Shown here piece after piece: positions 15 to 16,600 of a stretch of DNA of 28,050 nucleotides. Each line of letters begins with the position of its first letter. Position 1 is the stretch's first letter. The notes under the pieces were generated by a model. It made no database searches, had not been told where the DNA came from, and was given only the letters and a program-made list of their open reading frames with translations. The translations under genes and the position numbers were made by a program. The stretch comes from a virus: positions 1 through 28,050 of IMG/VR virus record IMGVR_UViG_3300020463_000105. One strand, given 5' to 3'.

Positions 15-1292
15 ATGTTTGTACTAGGAAGTACTAATCTTACGCTACAACAGCGTTTGGCTAAAAATGTGATGCGTCTAATGAAAGACGCGCCTGAACT
101 ATCAGGCATAATTATTATCGGTGATCGTACGATTGATGACGATGATCCCTCGATGACTGCTTGCACTGATGGTCGTAACGAATGGTATGGTCGTAACTAC
201 TGTGATCCATTGGGTGACGGACAGCTACGCTTTGTCATCATACATGAGAACTATCACAAGATGCTAAAACATCTTACCACATGGGCGCACCTCTGGAAGA
301 TAGATCCTGAGTTGGCGAACATGTCTATGGACTACTACATCAACTATCTGATCTGGCATTTGTACAGTGACAAGTCTAAGTACGGTGATCTTATCGACTG
401 GATTGATGGCGCACTGTATGATCCTAAGTATGATGACACGTGGGATACCGCTCGGATCTTCTGGGATCTGTATGATGACAAACAGAAAGGTAAACCACCA
501 CGTAGACCCACTAATCCTAAGACAGGACAGCCCTCAGATATTATCGATAATAACAAGGGCAATGGTCAAGGTGTACCACAGGGGTTTCGAGACAAGCATG
601 ACTTCGAGAAAGCCAAGGACATGTCTATAGACGAAGCCAAGGAGAACGCCAAGGAGATCGACGAAGCTATACGTCAGGGGGCTATCGTCGCAGGTAAAGT
701 GGGAACTGGTGGTGCAAGACACCTTAAGGAATTGCTCAAGCCACCCATTGATTTCCGTGAGCAGATACGTGACTTCGTTACGACTTACTGTTCGGGCAAA
801 GACTTTGGTACGTACAGCAAACCTAATCGTAGGTACGTGCAGTATGATATGATCATGCCGTCTACGGTCAGCGAGACTGTAGAAAGCTTGGTGTGTGCCA
901 ACGACATGTCTGGCTCTATCGGTGAGAGCGAAATCAAGGTTGTGGTTGGAGCAACAGCCAAGGCCGCAATGGACGTTACACCGGAAGAACTGCACGTTAT
1001 CTATTGGGATACAAAGGTGTCTGGACACGAACGCTACGAGAGGGACGAACTGGACAAGGTAGAGGATACTACAAACCCTTGTGGCGGTGGCGGTACTGAT
1101 GTGCGCTGTGTGCCACCGTTCCTACGTGAACATCACGTCAATCCAACCGCGTCCATTGTTGTTACCGATGGTGAAATGTGGAATGGGTTCGGTGATTGGG
1201 ATCATCCAGTGTTGTGGGTTATCGTGAACAATCCGTCTTGTGTACCGCCCGTAGGCAAACACGTTCACGTAACAAGTGGAGATCTACGGTAA
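15..1292 (+). CDS. VWA-like protein with N-terminal zincin motif (DUF2201-type)
   Basis: This 425-residue protein joins a metallopeptidase-like N-terminus to a C-terminal von Willebrand A-like domain. A zinc-binding HENYH motif (HExxH) lies at residues 77-81. The MIDAS motif DMSGS is at 297-301, and later GGGGTD and VVTDGE segments fit the other metal-coordinating loops. A hydrophilic Asp/Lys/Gly-rich linker (about 150-220) separates the halves. This layout matches the DUF2201 family (putative metallopeptidase plus VWA-like). Such proteins are usually encoded next to a MoxR-type AAA+ ATPase and are thought to act as chaperone pairs that remodel protein complexes. No ATPase gene is inside the window, but one could lie just upstream. 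AAGGAG at 1-6 sits 8 bases before the ATG and supports the start. Family call fairly sure; role in a phage is unknown. Confidence 0.8.
   Translation: MFVLGSTNLTLQQRLAKNVMRLMKDAPELSGIIIIGDRTIDDDDPSMTACTDGRNEWYGRNYCDPLGDGQLRFVIIHENYHKMLKHLTTWAHLWKIDPELANMSMDYYINYLIWHLYSDKSKYGDLIDWIDGALYDPKYDDTWDTARIFWDLYDDKQKGKPPRRPTNPKTGQPSDIIDNNKGNGQGVPQGFRDKHDFEKAKDMSIDEAKENAKEIDEAIRQGAIVAGKVGTGGARHLKELLKPPIDFREQIRDFVTTYCSGKDFGTYSKPNRRYVQYDMIMPSTVSETVESLVCANDMSGSIGESEIKVVVGATAKAAMDVTPEELHVIYWDTKVSGHERYERDELDKVEDTTNPCGGGGTDVRCVPPFLREHHVNPTASIVVTDGEMWNGFGDWDHPVLWVIVNNPSCVPPVGKHVHVTSGDLR
537..554. promoter_or_regulatory. 18-bp palindrome-like site, copy 1 of 3 (inside the VWA gene)
   Basis: GATATTATCGATAATAAC differs from the perfect palindrome at 3005 by one base and is a 14-bp perfect palindrome at its core (539-552). 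It lies inside the linker-coding part of the VWA gene. AACAAGG continues after the core, as in the copy at 7639. Confidence 0.45.
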
Positions 1293-1498
1293 TGGAGTTC
1301 TGGACTTTACTAACTATAGGTTACTCAGTGATGGAACACCAAATGCAATTCAGTGTTTGGTTTCCTAGCGAGGACGCCTGTTGGAGCGTACTACTAGATA
1401 GCGGTGCGCTCTACGATAAAATCAATGCAACAGAAGGTCATTGTGACGTAAGCGAGGTCGCGTCACATATTGTACGGCCTAAACTTAGACCTTGGTAA
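1292..1498 (+). CDS. small hypothetical protein, 68 aa
   Basis: I do not recognise a function. The ATG at 1292 shares a base with the TAA of the preceding gene (TAATG), which suggests translational coupling. I therefore prefer it over an in-frame start at 1196 that would overlap the VWA gene by about 100 bases. The product starts with a moderately hydrophobic stretch (MEFWTLLTIGYSVM), which may be a buried helix rather than a clear signal peptide. It is otherwise rich in aromatic and acidic residues, with two Cys. It belongs to the same run of tightly spaced early genes. Confidence 0.6.
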   Translation: MEFWTLLTIGYSVMEHQMQFSVWFPSEDACWSVLLDSGALYDKINATEGHCDVSEVASHIVRPKLRPW

Positions 1499-1508
1499 GG
1501 AAAAACAA

Positions 1509-2417
1509 ATGGCAATAATTAAAGCAATATACACACCGATCTGTGACTTGGATCTTAGTTACGAGACTCATGGTGATGGTGAACTAAACCAAAGTGTCGA
1601 GACTACTAACTTTCGCAAGGCTGTGGAGAAAGCACTGAATTGCAAGACGTGTTTTCGTAGCAACACCACCGCGTGGGTGTATCGTGAAAATGATAACTAC
1701 ACGATGGGTTATGTTGGGTTCTGTGACATGACACACTCAGGCACAGGTGGAGACAAGTACTACGTTGTTTCTAAAAACATTGAGAACAAAAAGTACAGTT
1801 CGGGTCAGTCTAACTATCATGCGTCATCTGCATTGCGTATAGACAAGGCTGTGAAGAATGCCCAAAGGTATCTGCGCCCGTGGTCACCTATCGAACATAT
1901 CGCCATAAGCTTTGATGATTTCAAAAGAGACTGGCGTGACGTAGGCTATCAAGCCGATAACGAGTACACCAAGAAATTAAATGCGATGACTAATGACATT
2001 CGAGAGCGAGGTAACACGTTCAAGGAGTTGGGTCACTTGCTATCTAGTGGGTACGAGTTTCTGTATGCCGACGTACGTAGCATGATCGAAGAGATACATG
2101 AAGCATTGTCGGAGTTGAACGAGACTAAGAAGCGTCCAAAGATACACAAGTTTATCTACATACGTGAGTATCTTGGTGAGCAACAGGCGGCTAGGTTCCC
2201 AATCAATGCAGATGACTATTGGTTCGATCTCAAATCGTTTCAACAGCAACACAGAGATATTCAGTGGGTCAAGGCTGATGATCTGGACGAAAACGATAAA
2301 CGTAAGATATCGTCTTTGTCGTTCTTGGAGAACGGTCAGTACATCGATGGCGTTGGCTTCAAAGCCGCAAGTAACTGTTACTACGTTGTGCCAGAAGAAG
2401 GGAGGTGTGTAGTATGA
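1509..2417 (+). CDS. hypothetical phage protein, 302 aa
   Basis: The function is not recognised. The open frame extends to 1470, but the ATG at 1509 has a Shine-Dalgarno-like AAGG at 1497-1500 and avoids overlap with the preceding gene, so I start there. The protein is soluble-looking with no membrane segment. The N-terminal 130 residues contain several Cys (for example NCKTC) and many Asn/Tyr. The central part (about 145-220) is predicted mostly helical and charged, and the end contains an aromatic beta-rich segment (NCYYVVPEEG). Its TGA overlaps the next ATG by four bases (ATGA), so the two are probably translated together. Confidence 0.7.
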   Translation: MAIIKAIYTPICDLDLSYETHGDGELNQSVETTNFRKAVEKALNCKTCFRSNTTAWVYRENDNYTMGYVGFCDMTHSGTGGDKYYVVSKNIENKKYSSGQSNYHASSALRIDKAVKNAQRYLRPWSPIEHIAISFDDFKRDWRDVGYQADNEYTKKLNAMTNDIRERGNTFKELGHLLSSGYEFLYADVRSMIEEIHEALSELNETKKRPKIHKFIYIREYLGEQQAARFPINADDYWFDLKSFQQQHRDIQWVKADDLDENDKRKISSLSFLENGQYIDGVGFKAASNCYYVVPEEGRCVV

Positions 2418-2620
2418 AGATCGAGAAAAATATACCGTTACCAAAGGATAGGAACAGATGGGTAAAACTAGCGAAGGATATGGAGGTTGGGGATAGTGTT
2501 CTTCTTAAAAACCCTGCCGAAGCCCTTTCTCTTGGGTTAGCCGTGAAACGATTATTTAAAGGCAAAGTGGTCACTGCAAAACAAGCTTGTGGCGGCATAA
2601 GAGCTTGGAGAAAAACATAA
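2414..2620 (+). CDS. small basic protein, 68 aa, related to the 13283 gene product
   Basis: ATG at 2414 overlaps the upstream TGA (ATGA), and GGAGG at 2401-2405 is 8 bases upstream, so this start is well supported over the in-frame one at 2405. The protein is basic and compact, with the pattern VGDSVLL near the middle and IRAWRKT at the very end. The 75-residue product at 13283 shows the same order of elements (VGYSVFV, then LRIWRTT), so the two look like distant members of one small family. Function unknown; the size and charge would fit a nucleic-acid or protein-binding accessory factor, which is inference only. Confidence 0.65.
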   Translation: MKIEKNIPLPKDRNRWVKLAKDMEVGDSVLLKNPAEALSLGLAVKRLFKGKVVTAKQACGGIRAWRKT

Positions 2621-2630
2621 GTAAAATAAT

Positions 2631-2680
2631 GAGGGGCGCGGTGGATTTAATATCGAAAAAAAGGAAACGCCGCGCCCCTC
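2631..2680. promoter_or_regulatory. GC-rich 13-bp hairpin with A-rich loop
   Basis: Arms 2631-2643 and 2668-2680 pair over 13 positions (11 perfect Watson-Crick pairs from GAGGGGCGCGG to its complement, then one G-T wobble and one G-C pair). They enclose a 24-base A-rich loop. It is far more GC-rich than its surroundings. No T-tract follows on either strand, so it is not a classical intrinsic terminator. It lies just after the stop at 2620, so it could protect or stop the upstream transcript, or be a structured RNA or protein-binding element. Confidence 0.65.
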
Positions 2681-2711
2681 GCTCTGATATCACAGATCTA
2701 AGCAATTTATT

Positions 2712-2746
2712 TATAGGTTGTAATTAAGTATCAGTCAACCTATATT
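2712..2746 (+). promoter_or_regulatory. sigma70-like promoter overlapped by a 9-bp inverted repeat
   Basis: TTGTAA (2718-2723) and TATATT (2741-2746) are separated by 17 bases, matching sigma70 -35 and -10 boxes at 4/6 and 5/6 positions. The arms TATAGGTTG (2712-2720) and CAACCTATA (2736-2744) form a perfect inverted repeat with a 15-base spacer covering both boxes. That is a layout typical of a repressor operator. The expected start of transcription is at about 2752-2754, at the ATG of the next gene. Confidence 0.55.
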
Positions 2747-2752
2747 TTACGC

Positions 2753-2995
2753 ATGAATGAAACATATCGCGTAAAAGTAAACCCAGACAACTCTACGTTC
2801 GAAATTACAAGTTTGGACATATTTACTCTTGAAATCGATGTTTCGGGGGTATATATGTCAGAAACTGATTTGCCTGAATGGGTCAAAAGAAAATTGTCGG
2901 CACTCTCATTTTGTGACTGGGGGGAAAGATCGACAAACTCTTTAGTTGGTGTTGGGAAGCGTATTAATGAACACATATTTTGGATATACAAATAA
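2753..2995 (+). CDS. hypothetical protein, 80 aa, possibly leaderless
   Basis: An 80-residue soluble protein of unknown function. The N-terminal half reads as beta-strand rich (TYRVKVNPDNSTFEITSLD) and is followed by a helical PEWVKRKLSAL segment. No Shine-Dalgarno sequence precedes the ATG. The -10 box ends only six bases upstream, so the transcript probably begins at or next to the start codon. It is the first gene after the 2630-2750 regulatory stretch, so it is a candidate early gene controlled by the overlapping palindrome. The antisense open frame covering it is a shadow. Confidence 0.65.
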   Translation: MNETYRVKVNPDNSTFEITSLDIFTLEIDVSGVYMSETDLPEWVKRKLSALSFCDWGERSTNSLVGVGKRINEHIFWIYK

Positions 2996-3004
2996 TCGCT
3001 CTGT

Positions 3005-3022
3005 GTTATTATCGATAATAAC
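3005..3022. promoter_or_regulatory. perfect 18-bp palindrome, copy 2 of 3
   Basis: GTTATTATCGATAATAAC is a perfect palindrome in the 159-base gap between genes. Two other sites in the replication arm (537-554 and 7639-7656) match it at 17 of 18 positions. This makes it a good candidate for a protein-binding operator. Downstream in the same gap are a T6 run after a G-rich stretch (about 3058-3076) and a small GTTTTC/GAAAAC inverted repeat, neither of which I can assign. Confidence 0.6.
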
Positions 3023-3154
3023 CGATGCCAGTTTTTTTGATTACGGTAGCCCCAGACAGCGGTGGGTGGGTTTTTTGCCAGTAGGTTGTTTTCCCGAAAA
3101 CACTGTCAGTGCGGAGAATTGGATTGGTTTGTTCATTGCCAAGGAGACCGCACA

Positions 3155-3826
3155 ATGAATTCTCTACGTGTAGAACTTGAGGATGAAGAAGAGAGACTAC
3201 GTAACATTCGTGTTAGGTGGTACAGGTCTAAGGCCAGTAGCAATAGACATGGCCCGTCCGTATTCGTAACTAACAAAGAACTAGAAAACTGGGATGACGT
3301 AGATCTGGATGAAGTAGACGAATATACTTCGGCGGCAGTCATAGACAGAAACTTTGATAGTATTGCCGAAGGAGAGATAGACAACATTGTCGCGTGTCTG
3401 AAGTCTGGTCTAGATGTGTCTGTGTGTGACAATGCTTTCACGATACCGGCGAACGCACCTCTGCATGATATAGAAATCACAGTAGGTAAGAGACACAAGT
3501 ATGAGAGAAAATTAGCAAACGTAGTATCTGCTCGCCAAGCCAAAGGCATAGAGACATGGCAGAAGATGAAGCCATACATTATGTTGAGAAAGCGTTTGAA
3601 CAGAGATAAGCAGTACGCTTTTCGTCAATTCCCCGACAAAGATAAAAGGAGAGCAACAGGTATGAAGTATGCACTTATTATGAGCAACGCGCCTATAGGT
3701 AAGGAAGGCAACACAGTGTTGTATTTCCATACATTAAAAGAAGCTAGAGCAAAGATGCGTGAGTACATAAACGACTATGGGTATGAACCGAAACATTTAG
3801 AAACGATGAAAGTAGTGGGGGATTAA
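3155..3826 (+). CDS. hypothetical phage protein, 223 aa
   Basis: The function is not recognised. The ATG at 3155 has AAGGAG at 3141-3146 eight bases upstream, which decides the start over the longer frame from 3062. The protein begins with a charged, probably coiled helix (EDEEERLRNIRVR), has an acidic middle (NWDDVDLDEVDEY) and ends with a strongly basic half (KRLNRDKQYAFRQFPDKDKRR). No membrane segment or catalytic signature is visible. Its stop is followed after one base by the next ATG, so it probably sits at the head of the operon leading into the replication genes. Confidence 0.7.
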   Translation: MNSLRVELEDEEERLRNIRVRWYRSKASSNRHGPSVFVTNKELENWDDVDLDEVDEYTSAAVIDRNFDSIAEGEIDNIVACLKSGLDVSVCDNAFTIPANAPLHDIEITVGKRHKYERKLANVVSARQAKGIETWQKMKPYIMLRKRLNRDKQYAFRQFPDKDKRRATGMKYALIMSNAPIGKEGNTVLYFHTLKEARAKMREYINDYGYEPKHLETMKVVGD

Positions 3827-3827
3827 A

Positions 3828-3977
3828 ATGGTAAAAGAGAAACATCAACACGCAAAAACTCAAAAAAGAATGGGTTTTGGTAAACTTAAAGAACATCAGC
3901 CCCAAAGATTTGCTAAACCAAGCAAAGCTGAATTAGTAAAAAGGCTAAAAGAAATAGCCGAAAAAAGGGCGAGATAA
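3828..3977 (+). CDS. very small basic protein, 49 aa
   Basis: A 49-residue frame fills the gap between the 223-residue protein and the VRR-NUC gene exactly: one base after the upstream TAA and one base before the next ATG. GGGGG at 3817-3821 is six bases upstream. About one third of its residues are Lys or Arg, with a C-terminal helix (AELVKRLKEIAEKRAR). The perfect fit and purine-rich composition support a real gene. Function unknown; nucleic-acid binding would fit the charge. Confidence 0.6.
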   Translation: MVKEKHQHAKTQKRMGFGKLKEHQPQRFAKPSKAELVKRLKEIAEKRAR

Positions 3978-3978
3978 A

Positions 3979-4311
3979 ATGACACCAGAAGCAAAAGTAA
4001 AACGTAGAGTTACGAACAAGTTAAAAGAAATGGGTGCGTACTATTTCTTTCCGATGACAGGTGGGTATGGACGTAGCGGTGTACCCGATATTATTGGATG
4101 CTACAGAGGTAGGTTCTTTGGTATCGAAACAAAAGCGGGAAATAATAAACCTACAGCGTTACAGATGAAGAACCTGAAAGATATTGATAGTCAGGGAGGG
4201 ATAGCTCTGGTTATAAATGAAGATAATCTATCCAGTATAAATGAACTATTGAGGGAAGATAATGCAGAGTTTAACGAAAGCGGAGGAAGCGGAGTTACGG
4301 TTTCTACGTAA
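3979..4311 (+). CDS. VRR-NUC family nuclease
   Basis: This 110-residue single-domain enzyme matches the VRR-NUC branch of the PD-(D/E)XK nucleases. The signature is seen as GVPDIIG (catalytic D37), FFGIETKAG (E50 and K52) and TALQ (Q62), in the order and spacing expected for this fold. Stand-alone phage VRR-NUC proteins are about this length and are thought to be structure-specific DNA nucleases acting with helicases in replication or recombination. The SNF2-type helicase at 7669 is a plausible partner. The last 20 residues (Ser/Gly/Glu-rich) look disordered and overlap the start of the next gene by 50 bases. Confidence 0.88.
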   Translation: MTPEAKVKRRVTNKLKEMGAYYFFPMTGGYGRSGVPDIIGCYRGRFFGIETKAGNNKPTALQMKNLKDIDSQGGIALVINEDNLSSINELLREDNAEFNESGGSGVTVST

Positions 4312-4450
4312 CGAAGTAGACAAGTATGTAGTAGAAGAAGGTAGGTTGGATAGACATCCAAACGTCAAGAACGATCTAGCAAGAGCAAGACGTGAATTGA
4401 AAGAATACGTAAAGAAACTGCAAAAAGCAGGAAGACACATATACTGTTAA
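4262..4450 (+). CDS. small charged helical protein, 62 aa
   Basis: A 62-residue protein made of heptad-like charged helices (EEAELRFLRNEVDKYVVEE and ARRELKEYVKKLQK), so probably a small coiled coil. It overlaps the end of the VRR-NUC gene by 50 bases. GAGGGA at 4251-4256 lies five bases before its ATG. No other frame fills the 150 bases after the VRR-NUC stop, which supports it. Function unknown; it may be a small partner of the neighbouring nuclease, by position only. Confidence 0.6.
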   Translation: MQSLTKAEEAELRFLRNEVDKYVVEEGRLDRHPNVKNDLARARRELKEYVKKLQKAGRHIYC

Positions 4451-4462
4451 TGGGAGACAAGT

Positions 4463-4894
4463 ATGGGTAAGAAACAAGAAAAAGCGTGGAAGTATTTATT
4501 AGAAAACAAAAGCGCAACAGCTAGAGAACTAGCAGATGCCGTAGGTATATCTTATGGGTATGCACTGAGCATTAAGAAAAAGATTGGAACACCACAAGAA
4601 ATATTAGATGCGCCAGATAAATTAACTAGATCCGATGTACTGGATACAGCAAAGAATTTAGTTAACGGAGACAGAGCCGAACAGCATGGCGATGCTACAA
4701 ACAACTTTGTACTCATGGCGGCATACTGGAATGCTCATCTTGGACTTAGAGATTTTATATCTGTCGATGACGTACCGATCATGTTGGCCTTGATGAAAGT
4801 AGCGAGGTTGCACGGCGACGGCACAAAGAACATAGACAACTACGTAGATGTCTGTGGGTATATGTCACTGGGTGGTGAGATTTCTCAACTGTGA
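4463..4894 (+). CDS. HTH plus DUF6378-like domain protein
   Basis: The N-terminal 45 residues form a winged-helix or helix-turn-helix (TARELADAVGISYGYALSIK). Residues about 65-143 carry the pattern GDRAEQHGDATNNF, then a W and a DVPIMLALMKVARL helix, then DNYVDVCGY. I recognise this as the phage DUF6378 family. The conserved Glu/Asp/His and all-helical pattern resembles MazG-like nucleotide pyrophosphohydrolases, but that resemblance is inference. GGGAG at 4452-4456 supports the ATG. Its TGA overlaps the GTG of the polymerase gene (GTGA). The fusion of a DNA-binding-like domain to this domain is unusual in my recollection. Confidence 0.75.
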   Translation: MGKKQEKAWKYLLENKSATARELADAVGISYGYALSIKKKIGTPQEILDAPDKLTRSDVLDTAKNLVNGDRAEQHGDATNNFVLMAAYWNAHLGLRDFISVDDVPIMLALMKVARLHGDGTKNIDNYVDVCGYMSLGGEISQL

Positions 4895-6714
4895 ACTTTG
4901 TAACCCTAGACTTCGAAACCTATTACGATAGAGAGTATTCGTTACGCAAACTAACGACAGAAGAATACGTGCGCGATAAAAGGTTCGAGGTCATAGGACT
5001 TGCGATAAAGATAGGTGACAGACCTACGTTTTGGATAGAGGGTGCTGCACGAGTCGAGCGTTTCTTATCAGAAGCAGACTTCTCTGGGTGCGGCGTTCTC
5101 TGTCACAACACGATGTTCGACGGTGCGATATTGGACTGGCTATATGATGTACGTCCAAAGGTTTGGCTTGATACCCTGTGTATGGCGAGAGCATTACATG
5201 GCGTAGATCAAAGTGTATCGCTGAAAAACGTAGCCGAAAGATATGGTGTTGGAGTCAAAGGTACAGAAATACAAAACACAATGGGTAAACACATAGATGA
5301 ATTCACTGCCGAGGAGTTATCTCGATTTGCTGAGTATGCTATAAACGATGTTGATCTGACATATGACATATTCAAGCTGATGTTGCCCAACTTTCCCCAA
5401 GAAGAGTTAGAACTAATAGACCTTACATTAAGAATGTATATTGAGCCAACGCTACGTTTGGATCTAGCTGGGCTACAAGAACACCTTACCGAGACACGTT
5501 CACGTAAGGAGACGTTGTTGGATGAAGCAGGAGTAGCGAAAAAGGAGTTGATGTCCAACCCCAAGTTTGCCGCACTGCTAGAGAATCTTGGTGTAACGCC
5601 CCCGATGAAAATAAGTCCGACAACAGGGAAAGAGACATTCGCATTTGCAAAGTCAGATGAGGGGTTCAAGGCGTTAGCAGAACATGAGAACGACAAGGTG
5701 CAATCTTTAGTTGCCGCTCGACTGGGTACTAAAAGCACTTTGGAAGAAACACGTACAGAGAGGTTTATATCTATTGCGAAGCGTGGGCTGCTCCCTGTAC
5801 CCGTCCGTTACTATGCCGCACATACAGGGAGATGGGGTGGAGATGACAAGATAAACCTACAAAATTTACCAAGCCGTGGGGTCAACGGTAAGAAGTTAAA
5901 AAAGAGTATCAAGGCTCCAGTTGGTCACACTCTTATAGATGCAGATAGTTCTCAGATCGAGGCAAGGGTATTAGCTTGGCTATCCGAACAAGACGACTTG
6001 GTTGATCAGTTTGCCAACGGTGAAGATGTCTATGTAAAGATGGCTAGTTCCATTTACGCCGTCCCCGAAGATCAAGTTACCAAAGACCAGAGATTTGTAG
6101 GAAAGACTACAATCTTGGGAGCAGGGTATGGTATGGGGTATCTGAAGTTTGGAGCGCAACTCAAGACCTTTGGGTATGAAGTACCCGAGGCGGAAGCGAA
6201 GCGGATTATATCTGTATACAGAGAGACGTACCCATATATTGGAGATTTATGGCAAGCGGCAAATAGGTGCATAAAAGAAATGCACAACGACAGTTTGTTC
6301 AGGTTTGGTCGGTCTGGAGTTTTAGACATCAACGTGGCAGCCCGGGCAATCGTGTTGCCGTCACAGCTAGAGATGTCTTACACTGACCTAGATGCTACGA
6401 CGGAAGGCGGGCGAACTGAGTATCATTACAAAACACGCCAAGGTCGCACTAGAATATATGGTGGCAAGGTAGTCGAGAATGTATGCCAAGCTATTGCTCG
6501 TTGTATTATAGGGCATCAAATGTTACAAATAGCTAAAAAATATAGAGTAGTATTAACCGTCCATGATAGTATTGTATGTTGCGTACCTGACCCGCTGGCT
6601 GCGGAAGCACAGGAATATATAGAGAGCTGTATGCGTACGACACCTGACTGGGCCGGTGGATTACCCATAGACTGTGAGAGTGGTCTGGGTAAGAGTTATG
6701 GAGATTGCGAATGA
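4891..6714 (+). CDS. polA: family A DNA polymerase with 3'-5' exonuclease
   Basis: The phage replicative polymerase, 607 residues, without the 5'-3' nuclease of bacterial Pol I. The N-terminus has a DEDDy proofreading exonuclease: LDFET (D7, E9), a CHNTMFDGAILDW segment, and YAINDVDLTYD. The polymerase domain has motif A DADSSQIEAR (catalytic D352), motif B RFVGKTTILGAGYG (R401, K405, L409, Y413) and motif C VHDS (H558, D559). The residue matching E. coli Pol I Phe762 is leucine (L409), the marine-virus Leu type. The start is GTG at 4891, overlapping the upstream TGA. The stop overlaps the next ATG. Full set of catalytic residues present; sure. Confidence 0.96.
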   Translation: MNFVTLDFETYYDREYSLRKLTTEEYVRDKRFEVIGLAIKIGDRPTFWIEGAARVERFLSEADFSGCGVLCHNTMFDGAILDWLYDVRPKVWLDTLCMARALHGVDQSVSLKNVAERYGVGVKGTEIQNTMGKHIDEFTAEELSRFAEYAINDVDLTYDIFKLMLPNFPQEELELIDLTLRMYIEPTLRLDLAGLQEHLTETRSRKETLLDEAGVAKKELMSNPKFAALLENLGVTPPMKISPTTGKETFAFAKSDEGFKALAEHENDKVQSLVAARLGTKSTLEETRTERFISIAKRGLLPVPVRYYAAHTGRWGGDDKINLQNLPSRGVNGKKLKKSIKAPVGHTLIDADSSQIEARVLAWLSEQDDLVDQFANGEDVYVKMASSIYAVPEDQVTKDQRFVGKTTILGAGYGMGYLKFGAQLKTFGYEVPEAEAKRIISVYRETYPYIGDLWQAANRCIKEMHNDSLFRFGRSGVLDINVAARAIVLPSQLEMSYTDLDATTEGGRTEYHYKTRQGRTRIYGGKVVENVCQAIARCIIGHQMLQIAKKYRVVLTVHDSIVCCVPDPLAAEAQEYIESCMRTTPDWAGGLPIDCESGLGKSYGDCE

Positions 6715-7376
6715 CAACTTGGTCGTTTAGCAGATTAAAGTCTTTCGAGACTTGCCCCAAACAGTTTTACCATGTGACTGTATTAGGTGAATACCCTGTC
6801 GTTCAGACAGATGCGATGACGTATGGAACTGCAATGCACAAAGCGGCAGAAGATTATGTCGGGGAAGATAAGCCACTTCCAGACAAGTTTATGTACGTTA
6901 AAGGAGTCCTAGACGAGCTGCTGGCGTTCAGGGGTACGAAATTAACCGAGCAGAGATTAGGACTTACCAGAGACCTGAAACCTTGTGGCTTCAAAGACAA
7001 AGATGTCTGGTTCCGTGGTATTGTAGATCTCGCTATCGTAGATACGTTAGGAGAGCGAGCTTGGATCGTAGATTATAAGACAGGCAAGTCTACAAAGTAT
7101 GCCGATAAAGGACAGCTAGAGCTTATGGCTTTGAGCATCTTTAAAAAATTTCCAGATGTAAAACATATCAATGCCGCGCTGTTATTTGTTGTTGCCAACG
7201 AAATAATAGAGGCTGAGTATAAAATAGAGAGTAGTTTCGATTTGTGGGGGAAATGGTTAAAGAAGTATGCTAGAATGGAAAAAGCATATGAGACAGATGT
7301 ATGGAACCCGAGACCTTCAGGGTTGTGTTACCATCACTGCCCCGTACTAGAATGTGTCCACAACGGAAGGAACTAA
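6711..7376 (+). CDS. Cas4/RecB-type PD-(D/E)XK nuclease with probable Fe-S cluster
   Basis: A 221-residue exonuclease-like protein. It opens with WSFSRLKSFETCPKQFY (C15), typical of RecB/AddB/Cas4 nucleases. Next come GTAMHKA (H43), GIVDLAIVD (D106), IVDYKTGKS (D121, K123) and GQLELMA (Q135). The C-terminus has C206, C210 and C215, which with C15 would hold a 4Fe-4S cluster as in Cas4 and AddB. Such phage proteins are thought to process DNA ends in recombination or replication. There are no cas genes nearby, so this is not a CRISPR component. The ATG at 6711 overlaps the polymerase stop (ATGA) and has GGAG at 6700-6703. I prefer it to the TTG two codons upstream. Confidence 0.88.
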   Translation: MTTWSFSRLKSFETCPKQFYHVTVLGEYPVVQTDAMTYGTAMHKAAEDYVGEDKPLPDKFMYVKGVLDELLAFRGTKLTEQRLGLTRDLKPCGFKDKDVWFRGIVDLAIVDTLGERAWIVDYKTGKSTKYADKGQLELMALSIFKKFPDVKHINAALLFVVANEIIEAEYKIESSFDLWGKWLKKYARMEKAYETDVWNPRPSGLCYHHCPVLECVHNGRN

Positions 7377-7378
7377 CC

Positions 7379-7639
7379 ATGCCTTACAAAAATAAACCAC
7401 GACCATATAAGAAAGAGTACAAACAACAGAAAGCCAGAGGCGAACACGCGGACCGCATGGAACGTCAACGTGCGAGGAGAAGTCTGGATAAGAAAAAAGT
7501 AAATCGCAAAGGTAAGGATATTGCACACAAGAAAGCATTAAGTAAAGGTGGCTCAAATAAAGACGGTTACACTCTACAAAGCCCAAAGAAAAATAGAGCC
7601 GCTGGTGGGCGTATGAGTAAACCAAAAAAGAAGAAGTAG
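7379..7639 (+). CDS. small highly basic protein, 86 aa, possible degenerate HNH
   Basis: An 86-residue protein with an extreme Lys/Arg content, ending in SKPKKKK. The segment GKDIAHKKALSKGGSNKDGY followed by KNR is reminiscent of the HNH fold core (H, GG, N), but Cys pairs and the usual second His are absent. It may be a DNA-binding protein or an HNH relative rather than an active nuclease. GGAAGG at 7365-7370 lies eight bases before the ATG at 7379, so I reject the longer in-frame start at 7301 that overlaps the nuclease gene. The stop codon TAG shares its last base with the palindrome at 7639. Confidence 0.65.
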   Translation: MPYKNKPRPYKKEYKQQKARGEHADRMERQRARRSLDKKKVNRKGKDIAHKKALSKGGSNKDGYTLQSPKKNRAAGGRMSKPKKKK

Positions 7640-7656
7640 TTATTATTGATAATAAC
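7639..7656. promoter_or_regulatory. 18-bp palindrome-like site, copy 3 of 3
   Basis: GTTATTATTGATAATAAC matches the perfect palindrome at 3005 at 17 of 18 positions. It fills the short gap between the basic-protein stop and the helicase ribosome-binding site. It could be an operator or, in RNA, a weak hairpin that masks or presents the AAGGAG immediately after it. Confidence 0.6.
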
Positions 7657-7662
7657 AAGGAG
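7657..7662 (+). promoter_or_regulatory. ribosome-binding site that selects a TTG start
   Basis: AAGGAG ends six bases before TTG at 7669 but 18 bases before the first ATG at 7681. The helicase gene is therefore best read as starting with TTG. Confidence 0.6.
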
Positions 7663-7668
7663 AACAAT

Positions 7669-9075
7669 TTGGGAAATACAATGGCAAAACCAGTTACCAC
7701 GCTCATGGATGAGTTATATGACTGGACGGGGGAACACAAACCGTTTCAACATCAAAAGAAGACGGCAACTTTTCTGACTGAAAATAAAAAAGGTTTTTGT
7801 TTTAACGAACAAGGCACAGGAAAAACTGCCAGTGCTATTTGGGCGGCAGACTTTTTGATGAAGCAAAATATTCTACATAGGGTACTAGTGATATGCCCTC
7901 TGTCAATTATGGATAGTGCATGGCAAGAAGACATACAGACCTTTGCGCCGCATAGAACATCAAACATAGCACATGGAGACAAATCTAAGAGAGAAAAAGT
8001 ACTGTTCAGCAGTGCGCGTTTCGTAATGATAAACTACGACGGCGTTAAGATTGTAGAAGACTCCATAAAGAAAGCAGGGTTTGACCTGATAATCGTAGAC
8101 GAAGCTACACACTATAAGAACTCACGATCACAACGATGGAAAGTGTTGAACCGTATTGTCGAAAAGACAGGATGTGGTCTGTGGATGATGACAGGTACAC
8201 CTGCGGCACAAAGCCCATTGGACGCGTACGGGTTAGCCAAACTTATTAACCCACTGAGTGTGCCGAGGTTCTTTACTGGATTTAGAGATCAGGTGATGCA
8301 ACAAGTATCTAGGTTTACTTGGGTTCCAAAGCCATCGTCTATAAATGTAGTTCATGCTGCTTTACAACCTGCGATTAGGTTTACAAAAGAACAGTGCATG
8401 GACTTACCCGATATGCTGTATACAAAACGTAGGGTGGCACTGACCCCACAACAAAAGAAGTACTACGACAAATTAAAACGGGAAATGGTACTAGAGTTGA
8501 CGGATGATAGTGTAACGGCAGTAAACGCTGCGGTAGCACTCAACAAACTCCTACAGATAAGTTCTGGTGCGGCATACACTGACGATGGAGGAGTCATAGC
8601 GTTTGACATAGACAATAGATATAAAGTGTTAAAAGAAGTCATAGACGAAACTGAACACAAGGTGCTTATCTTTGTACCTTTCAAACATACTATTCAAATA
8701 CTAACTGACCGTTTACGGAAAGATGGTATAAATACAGAGATCATTCAGGGGGCCGTGAGTGCTACAAAACGTGCAGACACGTTTAAGAGATTTCAAGAAG
8801 ATAAGAATCCCCGGGCCTTGGTTATCCAACCACAAAGTGCCGCGCACGGGGTAACTCTTACAGCAGCAAATACTGTGGTGTGGTGGTCGCCAACACCCTC
8901 TCTAGAGACGTACGCACAAGCAAATGCTAGGGTGCATCGCGCAGGTCAGAAAAACAGATGTACAGTTATTCAGTTAGAAGGCTCTGTGGCAGAGCGTAGA
9001 ATGTACGCATTACTCGATAAGAAGATAAACGTACACTCACAGATAATAAACCTTTACCAAGATCTACTTGACTAA
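7669..9075 (+). CDS. SNF2-type superfamily 2 DNA helicase/translocase
   Basis: A 468-residue two-domain SF2 ATPase. The N-terminal domain has the Walker A motif EQGTGKT (G49-T53), the DEAH-box equivalent VDEATHYKN (D144, E145) and motif III MTGTPAAQ (T175). The C-terminal domain has SAAHGVTLTAANTVVWW (motif V) and QANARVHRAGQ (motif VI, R421 and R424). The HRAGQ ending is typical of the SNF2 group. Phage members are thought to unwind or remodel DNA in replication or recombination and often sit near a VRR-NUC nuclease, as here (3979). No fused nuclease domain is seen. The start is TTG, chosen from the ribosome-binding site. Confidence 0.92.
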   Translation: MGNTMAKPVTTLMDELYDWTGEHKPFQHQKKTATFLTENKKGFCFNEQGTGKTASAIWAADFLMKQNILHRVLVICPLSIMDSAWQEDIQTFAPHRTSNIAHGDKSKREKVLFSSARFVMINYDGVKIVEDSIKKAGFDLIIVDEATHYKNSRSQRWKVLNRIVEKTGCGLWMMTGTPAAQSPLDAYGLAKLINPLSVPRFFTGFRDQVMQQVSRFTWVPKPSSINVVHAALQPAIRFTKEQCMDLPDMLYTKRRVALTPQQKKYYDKLKREMVLELTDDSVTAVNAAVALNKLLQISSGAAYTDDGGVIAFDIDNRYKVLKEVIDETEHKVLIFVPFKHTIQILTDRLRKDGINTEIIQGAVSATKRADTFKRFQEDKNPRALVIQPQSAAHGVTLTAANTVVWWSPTPSLETYAQANARVHRAGQKNRCTVIQLEGSVAERRMYALLDKKINVHSQIINLYQDLLD

Positions 9076-9136: not shown

Positions 9137-9532
9137 GTGTCTGTATCCATAGAGAACTTAACTAGTGCGTACTTAAACATTAGAGCGAAGCGATCAGAGC
9201 TTTCTGCTAAGTTTAAAAAAGAGGACGCCGAACTTTTAGAGGCGCAAACTCAACTCAAATCAGCATTACTCAACTACTGTGATGAACATGGTGTTGAGAG
9301 TGTTAGGACTGCCGAAGGTCTAGTATATAAAACAAGCAAGGAGAAATACTGGACATACGACTGGGATCATTTCCATGCGTTTGTCTTAGAGAATAGAGTC
9401 CCCGAATTGCTTGATCGTAGGATAAACCAGTCCAACCTACGAGAATTTCTTGAAGATAACCCTGATAAACTACCAAAGGGTCTAAACAAATCTGTAGATG
9501 TGTCAGTAACAGTAAGGAAGCCAAGCAAATGA
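9137..9532 (+). CDS. conserved phage coiled-coil protein, 131 aa
   Basis: A 131-residue protein with an N-terminal coiled coil (about 10-50, RAKRSELSAKFKKEDAEL), a middle segment on the pattern CDEHGVESVRTAEGLVYKT, and a C-terminal YDWDHFHAFVLENRVPELLDRR region ending in a beta-strand (DVSVTVRKP). I have seen this architecture in phage replication neighbourhoods next to ssDNA-binding proteins. No catalytic role is apparent. The start is GTG at 9137 with GGAGAA at 9125-9130. The stop overlaps the next ATG (ATGA). Function unknown; likely an accessory to replication or recombination. Confidence 0.75.
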   Translation: MSVSIENLTSAYLNIRAKRSELSAKFKKEDAELLEAQTQLKSALLNYCDEHGVESVRTAEGLVYKTSKEKYWTYDWDHFHAFVLENRVPELLDRRINQSNLREFLEDNPDKLPKGLNKSVDVSVTVRKPSK

Positions 9533-9747
9533 CAGATAAAGTAGGATTTCAATCTATCACAAATAAATATGTTGATTCATCAACATTAGCAGAGTACTTT
9601 GGTGTTTCACCATCGACGGTACGAGGGTGGGTTAGAGATAGTAAAATACCTCGCAACTCGTATATTAAGGCGGGAAAAGAAACGTACCGCTACAACCTAG
9701 CGTCCATAGAGGCGCATTTTATAGAAGGAGAACAAAATGGCGAATGA
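9529..9747 (+). CDS. excisionase-like helix-turn-helix DNA-binding protein
   Basis: This 72-residue protein is nearly all one HTH domain of the HTH_17/excisionase (MerR-like) type. VDSSTLAEYFGVSPSTVRGW is the HTH, DSKIPRNSYIKAGKETYRYN is the wing, and a final helix follows. No integrase gene is in the window, so a role as excisionase is not supported. A small regulator or DNA-architectural protein is more likely. It could be the protein that reads one of the palindromes in this arm, but nothing proves that. The ATG overlaps the preceding stop, with AAGGAAG nine bases upstream. The end overlaps the next gene by 11 bases. Confidence 0.8.
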   Translation: MTDKVGFQSITNKYVDSSTLAEYFGVSPSTVRGWVRDSKIPRNSYIKAGKETYRYNLASIEAHFIEGEQNGE

Positions 9748-13608: not shown

Positions 13609-16600
13609 AATCAAAGATAGTAGGGTCTCCGTATCTTTCGGCTTGCTCTACTAACATATTTTTTAACCTTGGATTTAAGGTGAGGCCATTGTATGCCCCG
13701 GCCCGCTGCCGTATCCTACCACGTATAGACTTGTCTATGTTATCTTGTAGAATCGGATATCCCGGGTAACGTTGATTATATTCTGCTATCCTTTGCGCCG
13801 TCCTTTGCATCCCTTCAATATCCCCATCAAAATACGCTCTAGCATACATGTTGTAGATTTGACGTCTTTTTCTTAGTACAGCCGCTTGTCTTCGCATAAC
13901 CTTAGAGTTAGCTTCCATAGTAGCAGAATATGATGCAGGGCTAAAACCAAAGAATTGAGCAATCAGGTGTCCGTCTGCAAGATCTTGAACGATTGGTTTA
14001 CCGTCCATAGTATACGCACCGCCCTCCCGTGCAAACCTAGCCGCCTTCTGCATATTCTTTATAGCTGCAGGGGATATGGTCTCTATACCACGTCTTAGTT
14101 TTTCTGTGTCTCCGTCAGCAGCGCCTTCTAATATCTGATTTAATCCGCGCTCTGTGTTTAAGGCTATACCTATGACAGGACCACCAAGCTGTTCTGCCAT
14201 CCTAAACAACAGAGGCCAATCTCTGTCCATCATAGAATCTCTGTAGATTAATTCGCTGAGTCCAACACGAGAGGATATATTAACACCTGTAAAGTAGTTT
14301 ACAGCTCCTCTATACGGTCCCTCTTGTACGTAGGCGCGTACCATTGTCTTTGCATCATCATCTTCTCCACCGGGGTCCATTCCCATAGCAGCCATGATCG
14401 TGTCTGCAACTGTTGTTGCTAATCCAAACCCGGGCATACCATATACACCTGCTAATAGACCAGACGATCCATACAAACCTATTAGTTGAAATAACGCCAT
14501 ACGTCGATCTGCAGGAGATCCTTTTGTTATTTTCATAACCATCTCGGTAAGCATACCGATCATTGATACGCCGTATCGTTTATACATAAAGATAACCGCA
14601 CCTAAGTTTCTTCTGCCAAGTTCAGGAGCAGCGGCAGCGGCTATACCACCGTTCGTAGTTTCTGTATCAAAAACTGCATCTTGTGCTGCCTTGAGCAGTA
14701 AATCAGGATTAGCCCTTTGTTGTGGTGATAGCTTGTTTAATGCCCCGCGATATGCGGCAAACAAGGCCGCTTCTCTATTTACACGTTCTGTGTGGTGTTG
14801 GATAAACCCAGAGAATTTATTAAACTTAGACCAGAAACCCCCCATTCTATCTACATCCAGTATTTCATGATCGAGAGATCTTTTGAACTGCCCTAGATCT
14901 ACGCCAGTATCTATGAACACTTGCAACTCTTCCGGGGTTATACCCATTTTGTTGAGGATACGTCTCTGTACACGTGTCAAGTTTCTGGGGTTCACGTTAC
15001 TGATCGAATATCCCGAACCCACTTCGGTCTCAATAGCTTGATTGTTAGCATCTGTGCCATACCCCATGATTGTACGAGTACCACCGCTATTTTTCATGAG
15101 GGACATAGCGCCTTTTATACCCCTCATAGTGGTTCCATATCCGTACTTAGCACCAAGATATGGAAAGGTAACTAACGGCACTTGCGTTAAGTTAACGAGA
15201 CCGCCTGATATGTTCATACCCAGTGTCATGTTAAATCCAATACCTGTTAAAGCCCTAGAAGTTTTACTACGTTCGGGTATTGGACCATCGCTTACAGTGC
15301 TGCGTAAAGAGTTGAGTAGTTCGTTTTTGTTTATACGGTTACCACCGCTCTCATTCATCTCGTTTTCAACTTTGCTAAGTGCTTGTTGCATCTTTGCTTT
15401 GTATTTTATGTTAACAGACTGTCGTATCAGAGACCTAGAGCGATCTGCGATAGCTTTCATGGAGTCTTCGTTATAACCCATACGTGCTTTGATAAGGTCA
15501 CCACCTTTACGCATTCTAAACGACTGTAGGTAAGATGTCTCAGGTAAGGTTTTAAGTATGACGTTGGCTATCTCGTCTTTTGTTTCAGCAGTTAGCTCAC
15601 CGCTACCTTCTAGTTTAGCCATTAGCTCATTAACAAAGGACGCGTTTGGCGCACGTCTCATAAAACTTGTAGCATCTAGTTCTTGTGTAGATTCTACAGC
15701 AAGCATGTCATTTAATGCGTCTGCTTCAGACATCTGAGACATACCCTGAGTACGAGATTCAAGAGCAATTCTTGCAGGTGAACCTTCTGGAGCGGCTAGT
15801 ATATTTTGTTTGGCATCTGCTACTATAGCTTCTCTGGCCCGATCCCTAGCCTGTTCTCCTTGGAACGAGTCTGAGTATCTTTCTATACGTCCTGTTACCG
15901 GGTCAATAGCATTGAGGGATAGCCAGTAGTCTCCACCGTCACGTTGTAATGGAGTATAAGGCTCTAACTTACCTTTCTTTATAAGGTTAGTATAGAAAGT
16001 ATCTCGTATAGCGGCTCTAGATTGTTCAGGTACACCAGATGCCTCTAGTCGTGTGTCTATGGCTTTTATCAGGTCTTCTACCAAACCCTTAAACATATTT
16101 TGAGACTGATGATAAAGTCGTATAGGTTCACCTCTGTCTACACGTTGTAGTCTCTTGTAATCTTTTCGTATAATCTCATACACTTTATACATATCAGGAG
16201 AGTAATTATCTCTAGCTTCTCGCTCTGAAAGTGCAGGGTTTACTTGATAAGAAGTACCTATGTTATTCAAACGATTCCATGCGGATATGTTCTTTTTACT
16301 AGATTTGTTAGCCCACTTAACAATCCCATCATTCACTTGATTTACTTTGTCGTACCCTGACTGAAGTTCTCCACCAGATTGGTTTACTAGATTATTTATA
16401 TCTGCCGCACTTGGAGCAAACTTCTCAGCCATGCGTGTGACGTAGTGTAGAGGAGTGGCCTTGAGTACCCAACCTTTCACCGTGCCTAACTTGTCCTGAC
16501 TCCAGTCTTTGGGTGTTTGTTTTGTTAGCTCTTCAAATTTGTTGTATGCCGTCTCATCAAACACAGGACTATTTGTTGTCGCATCTTGGAACAGTCGGTC

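Follow-up and report, generated by a model that had tools for sequence, protein, structure and literature searches.

The 28,050-nucleotide stretch analysed here (IMG/VR virus record IMGVR_UViG_3300020463_000105; hereafter the window) is a linear fragment of a virus genome that carries three copies of an 18-bp palindrome, GTTATTATCGATAATAAC, among its early genes. It opens with a DUF2201/VWA gene, followed by genes for a VRR-type endonuclease-like protein, a DUF6378 protein, a family A polymerase, a PD-(D/E)XK nuclease and an SNF2 helicase; a Gp2.5-like single-stranded DNA-binding protein and a primase-helicase come next, after which the late arm runs leftward. Because the window starts at the VWA gene, all upstream parts of the early operon, including its first gene, are missing, and because it is a linear fragment, most of the array of sites described below falls outside it. 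The sites, which belong to the first of several classes, and the features around them are as follows.

15..1292, plus strand: DUF2201/VWA-like gene containing a site (PF13203, PF09967)
537..554: class I site in the VWA gene, one mismatch, GATATTATCGATAATAAC
3005..3022: class I site, a perfect palindrome, between g2753 and g3155; class II relatives have GTTATCGTGGTCGATAAC there
7639..7656: class I site between g7379 and the SNF2 helicase gene, one mismatch, GTTATTATTGATAATAAC
7657..7662, plus strand: AAGGAG ribosome-binding site of the helicase gene, read from the sequence, immediately 3′ of the site
7669..9075, plus strand: SNF2-type helicase gene (PF00176, PF00271), 3′ of the last site of the array

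The site at 7639..7656 covers the last base of a TAG stop codon and abuts the ribosome-binding site. An initial annotation, made from the window alone, had reported the three palindromes, considered them beyond chance and seen no obvious copy in the late arm. Our coordinates and mismatch counts (0, 1 and 1) agree with it, and no further match at up to three mismatches occurs in the 28,050 bases. In 100 dinucleotide shuffles, the mean number of matches was 0.01 and no shuffle gave three.

An exact 16-mer scan over 2.9 million viral contigs returned 63 stretches. Those with at least two copies (L018, L023, L044, L048, L058 and L059) were all relatives of the window, and their contigs carry 4–8 sites each, from the start of the early operon to the SNF2 helicase gene, with none in the late arm. 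Longer relatives have 7–12 sites, extending from just 5′ of the first early gene to just 5′ of the SNF2 helicase gene; as in the window, their late arms are essentially free of sites of any of the five classes that we found. An array of about ten sites, to which the three palindromes of the window belong, extends across the early genes of an uncultured phage family.

The five classes differ in sequence and share a frame. Class I is GTTATTATCGATAATAAC and class II is GTTATCGAnnTCGATAAC. Class III, GTTAGTrnnnnyACTAAC, is used by G013, a 54.7-kb relative (polymerase 78% identical). Class IV, TTTACGGAATTCCGTAAA, occurs in 11 copies, 10 of them exact, in the more distant relative G026, and class V is TGTTAGTGACwCACTAACA, with GTTAGTGACwCACTAAC present in L135 and G029, also more distant relatives. 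All begin with [GT]TTA and finish with TAA[CA]; the class resides in the inner bases.

Positions are retained when the class changes, and relatives 90–98% identical in adjacent genes bear other palindromes at equal places. Four relatives with polymerases 93–97% identical to that of the window (L067, L069, L070 and L074) have GTTATCGAnnTCGATAAC-type sites at exactly the places of its GTTATTATCGATAATAAC sites: in the VWA gene, between g2753 and g3155, and between g7379 and the SNF2 gene. The gap 5′ of the SNF2 ribosome-binding site holds a site in five of five classes, always adjoining the Shine–Dalgarno sequence. Around the site that precedes the MoxR gene, flanks match at 29/30 positions between G001 and G014 and at 30/30 between G026 and G029, with differing palindromes in between. 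Within the VWA gene, the site lies at equal codons in classes I, II and III, flanked by conserved PKTG and KHDFE, and encodes VINGNN, VIDPDN and VSGDTN, respectively; the protein therefore follows the site. This gene also matches PHROG 1314, which is labelled HNH endonuclease, a label that looks wrong because the Pfam domains are metallopeptidase-like DUF2201 and VWA-like ones.

De novo clustering of palindromes found 7–12 family-like members per array contig versus 1–3 in shuffles, and the array palindromes were the top families in nearly all array contigs; the window, with three sites only, was not resolved by this approach. The initial annotation had named two outcomes that would speak against it, namely, sites not conserved in relatives and palindromes equally common in shuffled sequence. 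Both were examined and neither held.

Beyond the core family, G031 (contig 3300038485_000059), a distant relative with a 46% identical MoxR, has three exact GTTATCGAATTCGATAAC sites at 32, 677 and 2338, at the start of the contig, on which the first early gene was not detected. L213 (PAPJ01000001, a Planctomycetaceae metagenome-assembled genome) has five ATTAGynnrrCTAAT-like palindromes near a related polymerase gene (null ≤3), possibly another class, and bacterial genome contigs with related polymerases showed no clear array. In the regions read of the isolates with the closest terminases (HTVC027P, HTVC023P, 023Pt_psg01 and DSL-LC04), there were no comparable arrays; two of the four had AT-rich palindrome clusters slightly above the null, with a low-complexity look. 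Separately, the polymerase and SNF2 helicase matches of L079 and L080 (contigs 3300017991_000689 and 3300018080_000865) are each interrupted by an insertion of about 0.9 kb. Each insertion might be an intron, an intein or a homing element, with two genes of one phage affected.

Only one neighbouring gene tracks the site class, as judged from a gene-by-gene table of every early gene with G001 as reference. It is the first gene of the early operon, upstream of the VWA gene, and its product of about 170–270 amino acids belongs to no known family. G001 (class I) and G014 (class II) are 99% identical in TerS, 80% in MoxR, 96% in PolA and 92% in the helicase. The first-gene product of G001 is 27% identical to those of class II and has no match in classes III–V at BLAST level, and within classes identity is 64–95% (I), 73–95% (II) and 31–68% (IV). 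In every contig that shows both, the first-gene family corresponds to the site class (I with I, II with II, IV with IV and V with V). Examples of the first gene, all on the plus strand, are L127 1704–2345 (class I), L115 14014–14658 (class II), L134 6980–7585 (class IV) and L135 3304–3831 (class V). This link was also examined blind, through an exact search for TGTTAGTGACwCACTAACA that returned 32 stretches. Of these, 31 came from the phage family of the window and one, 2.6 kb long, was unassignable; all that reached the first-gene locus had a class V first gene, and none had another family. The array keeps fixed positions, all its sites change together, and its class is linked exclusively to the first gene. 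We consider it likely that the product of the first early gene has the palindromes as its cognate sites.

Other candidates for the binding protein fared less well. The initial annotation had proposed two helix-turn-helix (HTH) proteins of the window, neither of which covaries with site class:

4463..4894, plus strand: DUF6378 protein (PF19905), rejected as the binder
9529..9747, plus strand: HTH_17/excisionase-like protein (PF12728), unsupported as the binder

The first is 95–98% identical when phages of classes I and II are compared. The second is 71% identical within class I, 56–61% to class II and 55% to class III, and its identity shows no step where the class changes. An HTH_3 gene (PF01381) was above the cut-off in G004 and G005 only and was absent from the array-bearing contigs G014, G013, G026, G029 and G001.

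On a tree of TerL and TerS from 18 contigs, site class changes at least eight times, and the tree rejects monophyly for each of classes I, II, IV and V. Neighbours of different class with 98–99% identical TerS DNA include G003/G032, G001/G014, L015/L157 and G026/L135. DNA identity in such comparisons stays at 96–98% until about 70–120 bp 5′ of the first gene, is absent through the gene and gives way to homology again 3′ of it, a pattern that shows a gene swapped as a cassette. Some genomes are hybrids: G029 combines class V with two class IV sites located exactly as in G026, and G003–G005 are class I phages in which one or two sites are of class II. The scattered sites therefore appear to have been re-tuned following gene replacement, an order of events that we infer. 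The class IV and class V first-gene profiles align with a probability of 86.5% (E 4.6e-6), and at least these two specificities therefore probably come from one family. Class V members are 26–62% identical to the L135 protein, with a basic core, RYWQQQIGAKRNDFK, kept in most.

The placement of the sites bears on what they may do. Many lie in short intergenic gaps between a stop codon and the following ribosome-binding site. The first follows a sigma70-like sequence, TTGACT-16-TATAAT (11 of 12 positions; G014 13911–13938, site at 13970), just 5′ of the first gene. Promoter elements were considered as an identity for the sites and rejected, as sites are no nearer promoter-like sequences than are random positions (mean promoter score 7.29 versus 7.19). 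Positional conservation, concerted change of specificity and this intergenic, ribosome-binding-site-abutting placement strongly support the conclusion that the sites are dispersed and regulatory. Their symmetry implies a dimer, and their position between stop codons and ribosome-binding sites favours a block to elongation over activation.

We favour, with moderate confidence, a reading in which the palindromes are stoperator-like or CIR-like dispersed operators (CIRs being the conserved inverted repeats of phage phiC31) for a dimeric protein made from the first gene of the early operon. Produced first, this protein would bind in its own leader and at the sites further downstream, acting as a roadblock to RNA polymerase, and so would turn down the early operon of its own phage as well as that of a co-infecting phage of the same class. 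We lean towards the view that the first early gene product silences transcription; that it serves to exclude related phages is possible but rather unlikely. The fullest form of the proposal, a wholly lytic gene set with an immunity-like system in which a DNA-binding protein of a new family, made early, silences those early operons that carry sites of its own class and excludes co-infecting kin, is offered tentatively, and the odds are against it. If exclusion did operate, specificity could be under frequency-dependent selection, with one gene replaced repeatedly and about ten scattered sites then re-tuned. Several results weigh against the favoured reading. First-gene proteins had no credible match in Pfam, PHROGs or PDB sequences and no recognisable DNA-binding domain; AlphaFold models of the class I/II and class IV proteins were uninterpretable (predicted local distance difference test scores of 53 and 52); no link was established between the class I/II and class IV/V families; and it is hard to see what silencing would gain a phage in which genes for lysogeny were not found.

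The last point rests on searches in which Phage_integrase was found in none of 17 contigs, and resolvase, ParB (PF02195) and ParA (PF13614) in none of the 7 records tested. Most of these contigs are fragments. In the 62,058-base G029 (contig 3300025127_000028), which is among the seven records, the helicase gene is divided between the two ends of the contig, as would be the case if a whole genome were permuted; G029 is probably a complete, circularly permuted genome of the window's phage family. A lytic life is likely, though not proved. These negatives also bear on the alternative that fares best, in which the first-gene product is the true immunity repressor of a temperate phage, perhaps lysogenic without integration, with the sites serving as operators and stoperators. 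Diversified specificity is typical of immunity, and the closest functional precedent is that of the cluster A mycobacteriophages, in which stoperator motifs and repressors change together (PMC6550527), but with the integration and partition genes missing from the contigs searched and the gene heading an early lytic operon without a separate promoter, we consider this improbable.

Activation or antitermination of early transcription by the first-gene protein through the sites would fit the one site near the sole strong promoter-like sequence, and DNA-bound antiterminators such as lambda Q exist. Most sites, however, lack a promoter in their vicinity and adjoin ribosome-binding sites, a location unsuited to an activator, which makes a positive regulator a poor prospect. 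A role in genome maintenance, through replication initiation, parS-like segregation or compaction, is poorer still: the palindromes are dispersed near replication genes, and phage N15 has dispersed centromeres, but neither ParA nor ParB was found in the seven records, and the sites follow the boundaries between genes of a single operon, with none in the other half of the genome. RNA hairpins read by a translational repressor or an RNase, suggested by AAGGAG directly 3′ of several sites, are hardly credible, as some sites lie inside genes, a class IV site (G026, 9100) is 5′ of the putative promoter region of the first gene, and mismatched pairs on the sense strand (20 G.U and 30 A.C) show A.C as common as G.U and no G.U bias, so that recognition is probably of DNA rather than RNA.

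Taken with the preferred reading of dispersed operators, our results suggest that the first early gene makes an undescribed DNA-binding silencer whose specificity has been swapped repeatedly. To our knowledge, a few temperate phages have dispersed operators; those reported here belong to a large uncultured family of environmental phages without detected lysogeny genes. At least five specificity classes are tied to one orphan gene position, with hybrids such as G029 caught mid-switch, which offers a testable function for unannotated genes, provides matched natural pairs in which to study how ten scattered sites change jointly with a regulator, and prompts the question whether lytic phages control superinfection. 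What the initial annotation saw was a real, visible corner of a larger system.

A cultured phage could serve as a test system. Synechococcus phage MinM2 and Planktothrix phages Pag-Yong1 and Pra-JY27 have MoxR and VWA genes and a 40% identical TerL, and close copies of GGTTCAGnCTGAACC number at least 14 in the early arm, many of them lying in gaps 5′ of genes. Theirs differs from the arrays above in being a 15-bp palindrome with late-arm copies too, and in a first-gene protein without detectable relation; a class V profile search of the genome with this class VI first gene (MM2_92) found no match. The MM2_92 product matches a second place in its own genome (MinM2, L226), perhaps a duplicated regulator. 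The records OQ594354 (MinM2; L226/L228), OL906435 and PP438419 are of equal length (65,014 bases), with first-gene proteins 100% identical, and were reported from Synechococcus, Planktothrix and Planktothricoides. A G+C content of 69% is odd for such cyanobacterial hosts, and the true host may therefore be a heterotroph in the cultures.

Among known systems, membership of the lambda CI/Cro type is not indicated, the HTH_3 repressor (PF01381) being absent from the same five array-bearing contigs, nor is that of ParB/parS, as the ParA ATPase and ParB were absent from the seven records. In the early region of the Streptomyces phage phiC31, the phage repressor binds dispersed CIRs of about 17 bp. 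These look most similar in form to the sites described here, which are likewise inverted repeats dispersed over an early region. phiC31 is temperate and has a serine integrase, whereas here no resolvase domain was found (seven records) and several site classes occur among near-identical phages. As far as the Pfam and PHROG scans cover a phiC31-type c repressor, none was recognised among the first-gene proteins. A literature search on phiC31 CIRs and on palindromes of MinM2, Pag-Yong1 and Pra-JY27 gave no usable open paper.

Phage P1 has about 22 C1 operators dispersed over its genome (PMC8546580). Their 17-bp consensus is asymmetric and P1 is a temperate plasmid prophage, whereas the sites here are symmetric. 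The initial annotation had likened the palindromes to the stoperators of phage L5, as a dispersed repressor or silencing site. In cluster A phages (L5, Bxb1 and Trixie), 20–30 stoperators are dispersed, mostly in short intergenic spaces and off promoters (PMC6550527, PMC9283540), and their motifs change together with the repressors among relatives (PMC6550527). The L5 sites are 13 bp long, asymmetric and bound by a monomer, with one orientation active, in temperate phages (PMC9283540, PMC6550527). The arrays described here resemble these in having many dispersed, mostly non-promoter sites (7–12 per contig) and in the joint change of motif and regulator. They differ in consisting of 17–18-bp palindromes confined to the early arm rather than asymmetric 13-bp sites over the whole genome, in that the putative regulator, encoded where the early operon starts, belongs to no known family, in place of a repressor with a recognisable N-terminal HTH, and in that neither integrase nor parABS was found here whereas cluster A phages are temperate. 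Membership of either system fails on the symmetry of the sites, and that of cluster A fails also on the repressor and the lysogeny genes. The dispersed regulatory site of the initial annotation stands, with silencing as our inference, and a strict L5-type system does not, given symmetric sites and no integrase, resolvase, ParA or ParB in the contigs searched; in concept, the stoperators of cluster A are the nearest known system.

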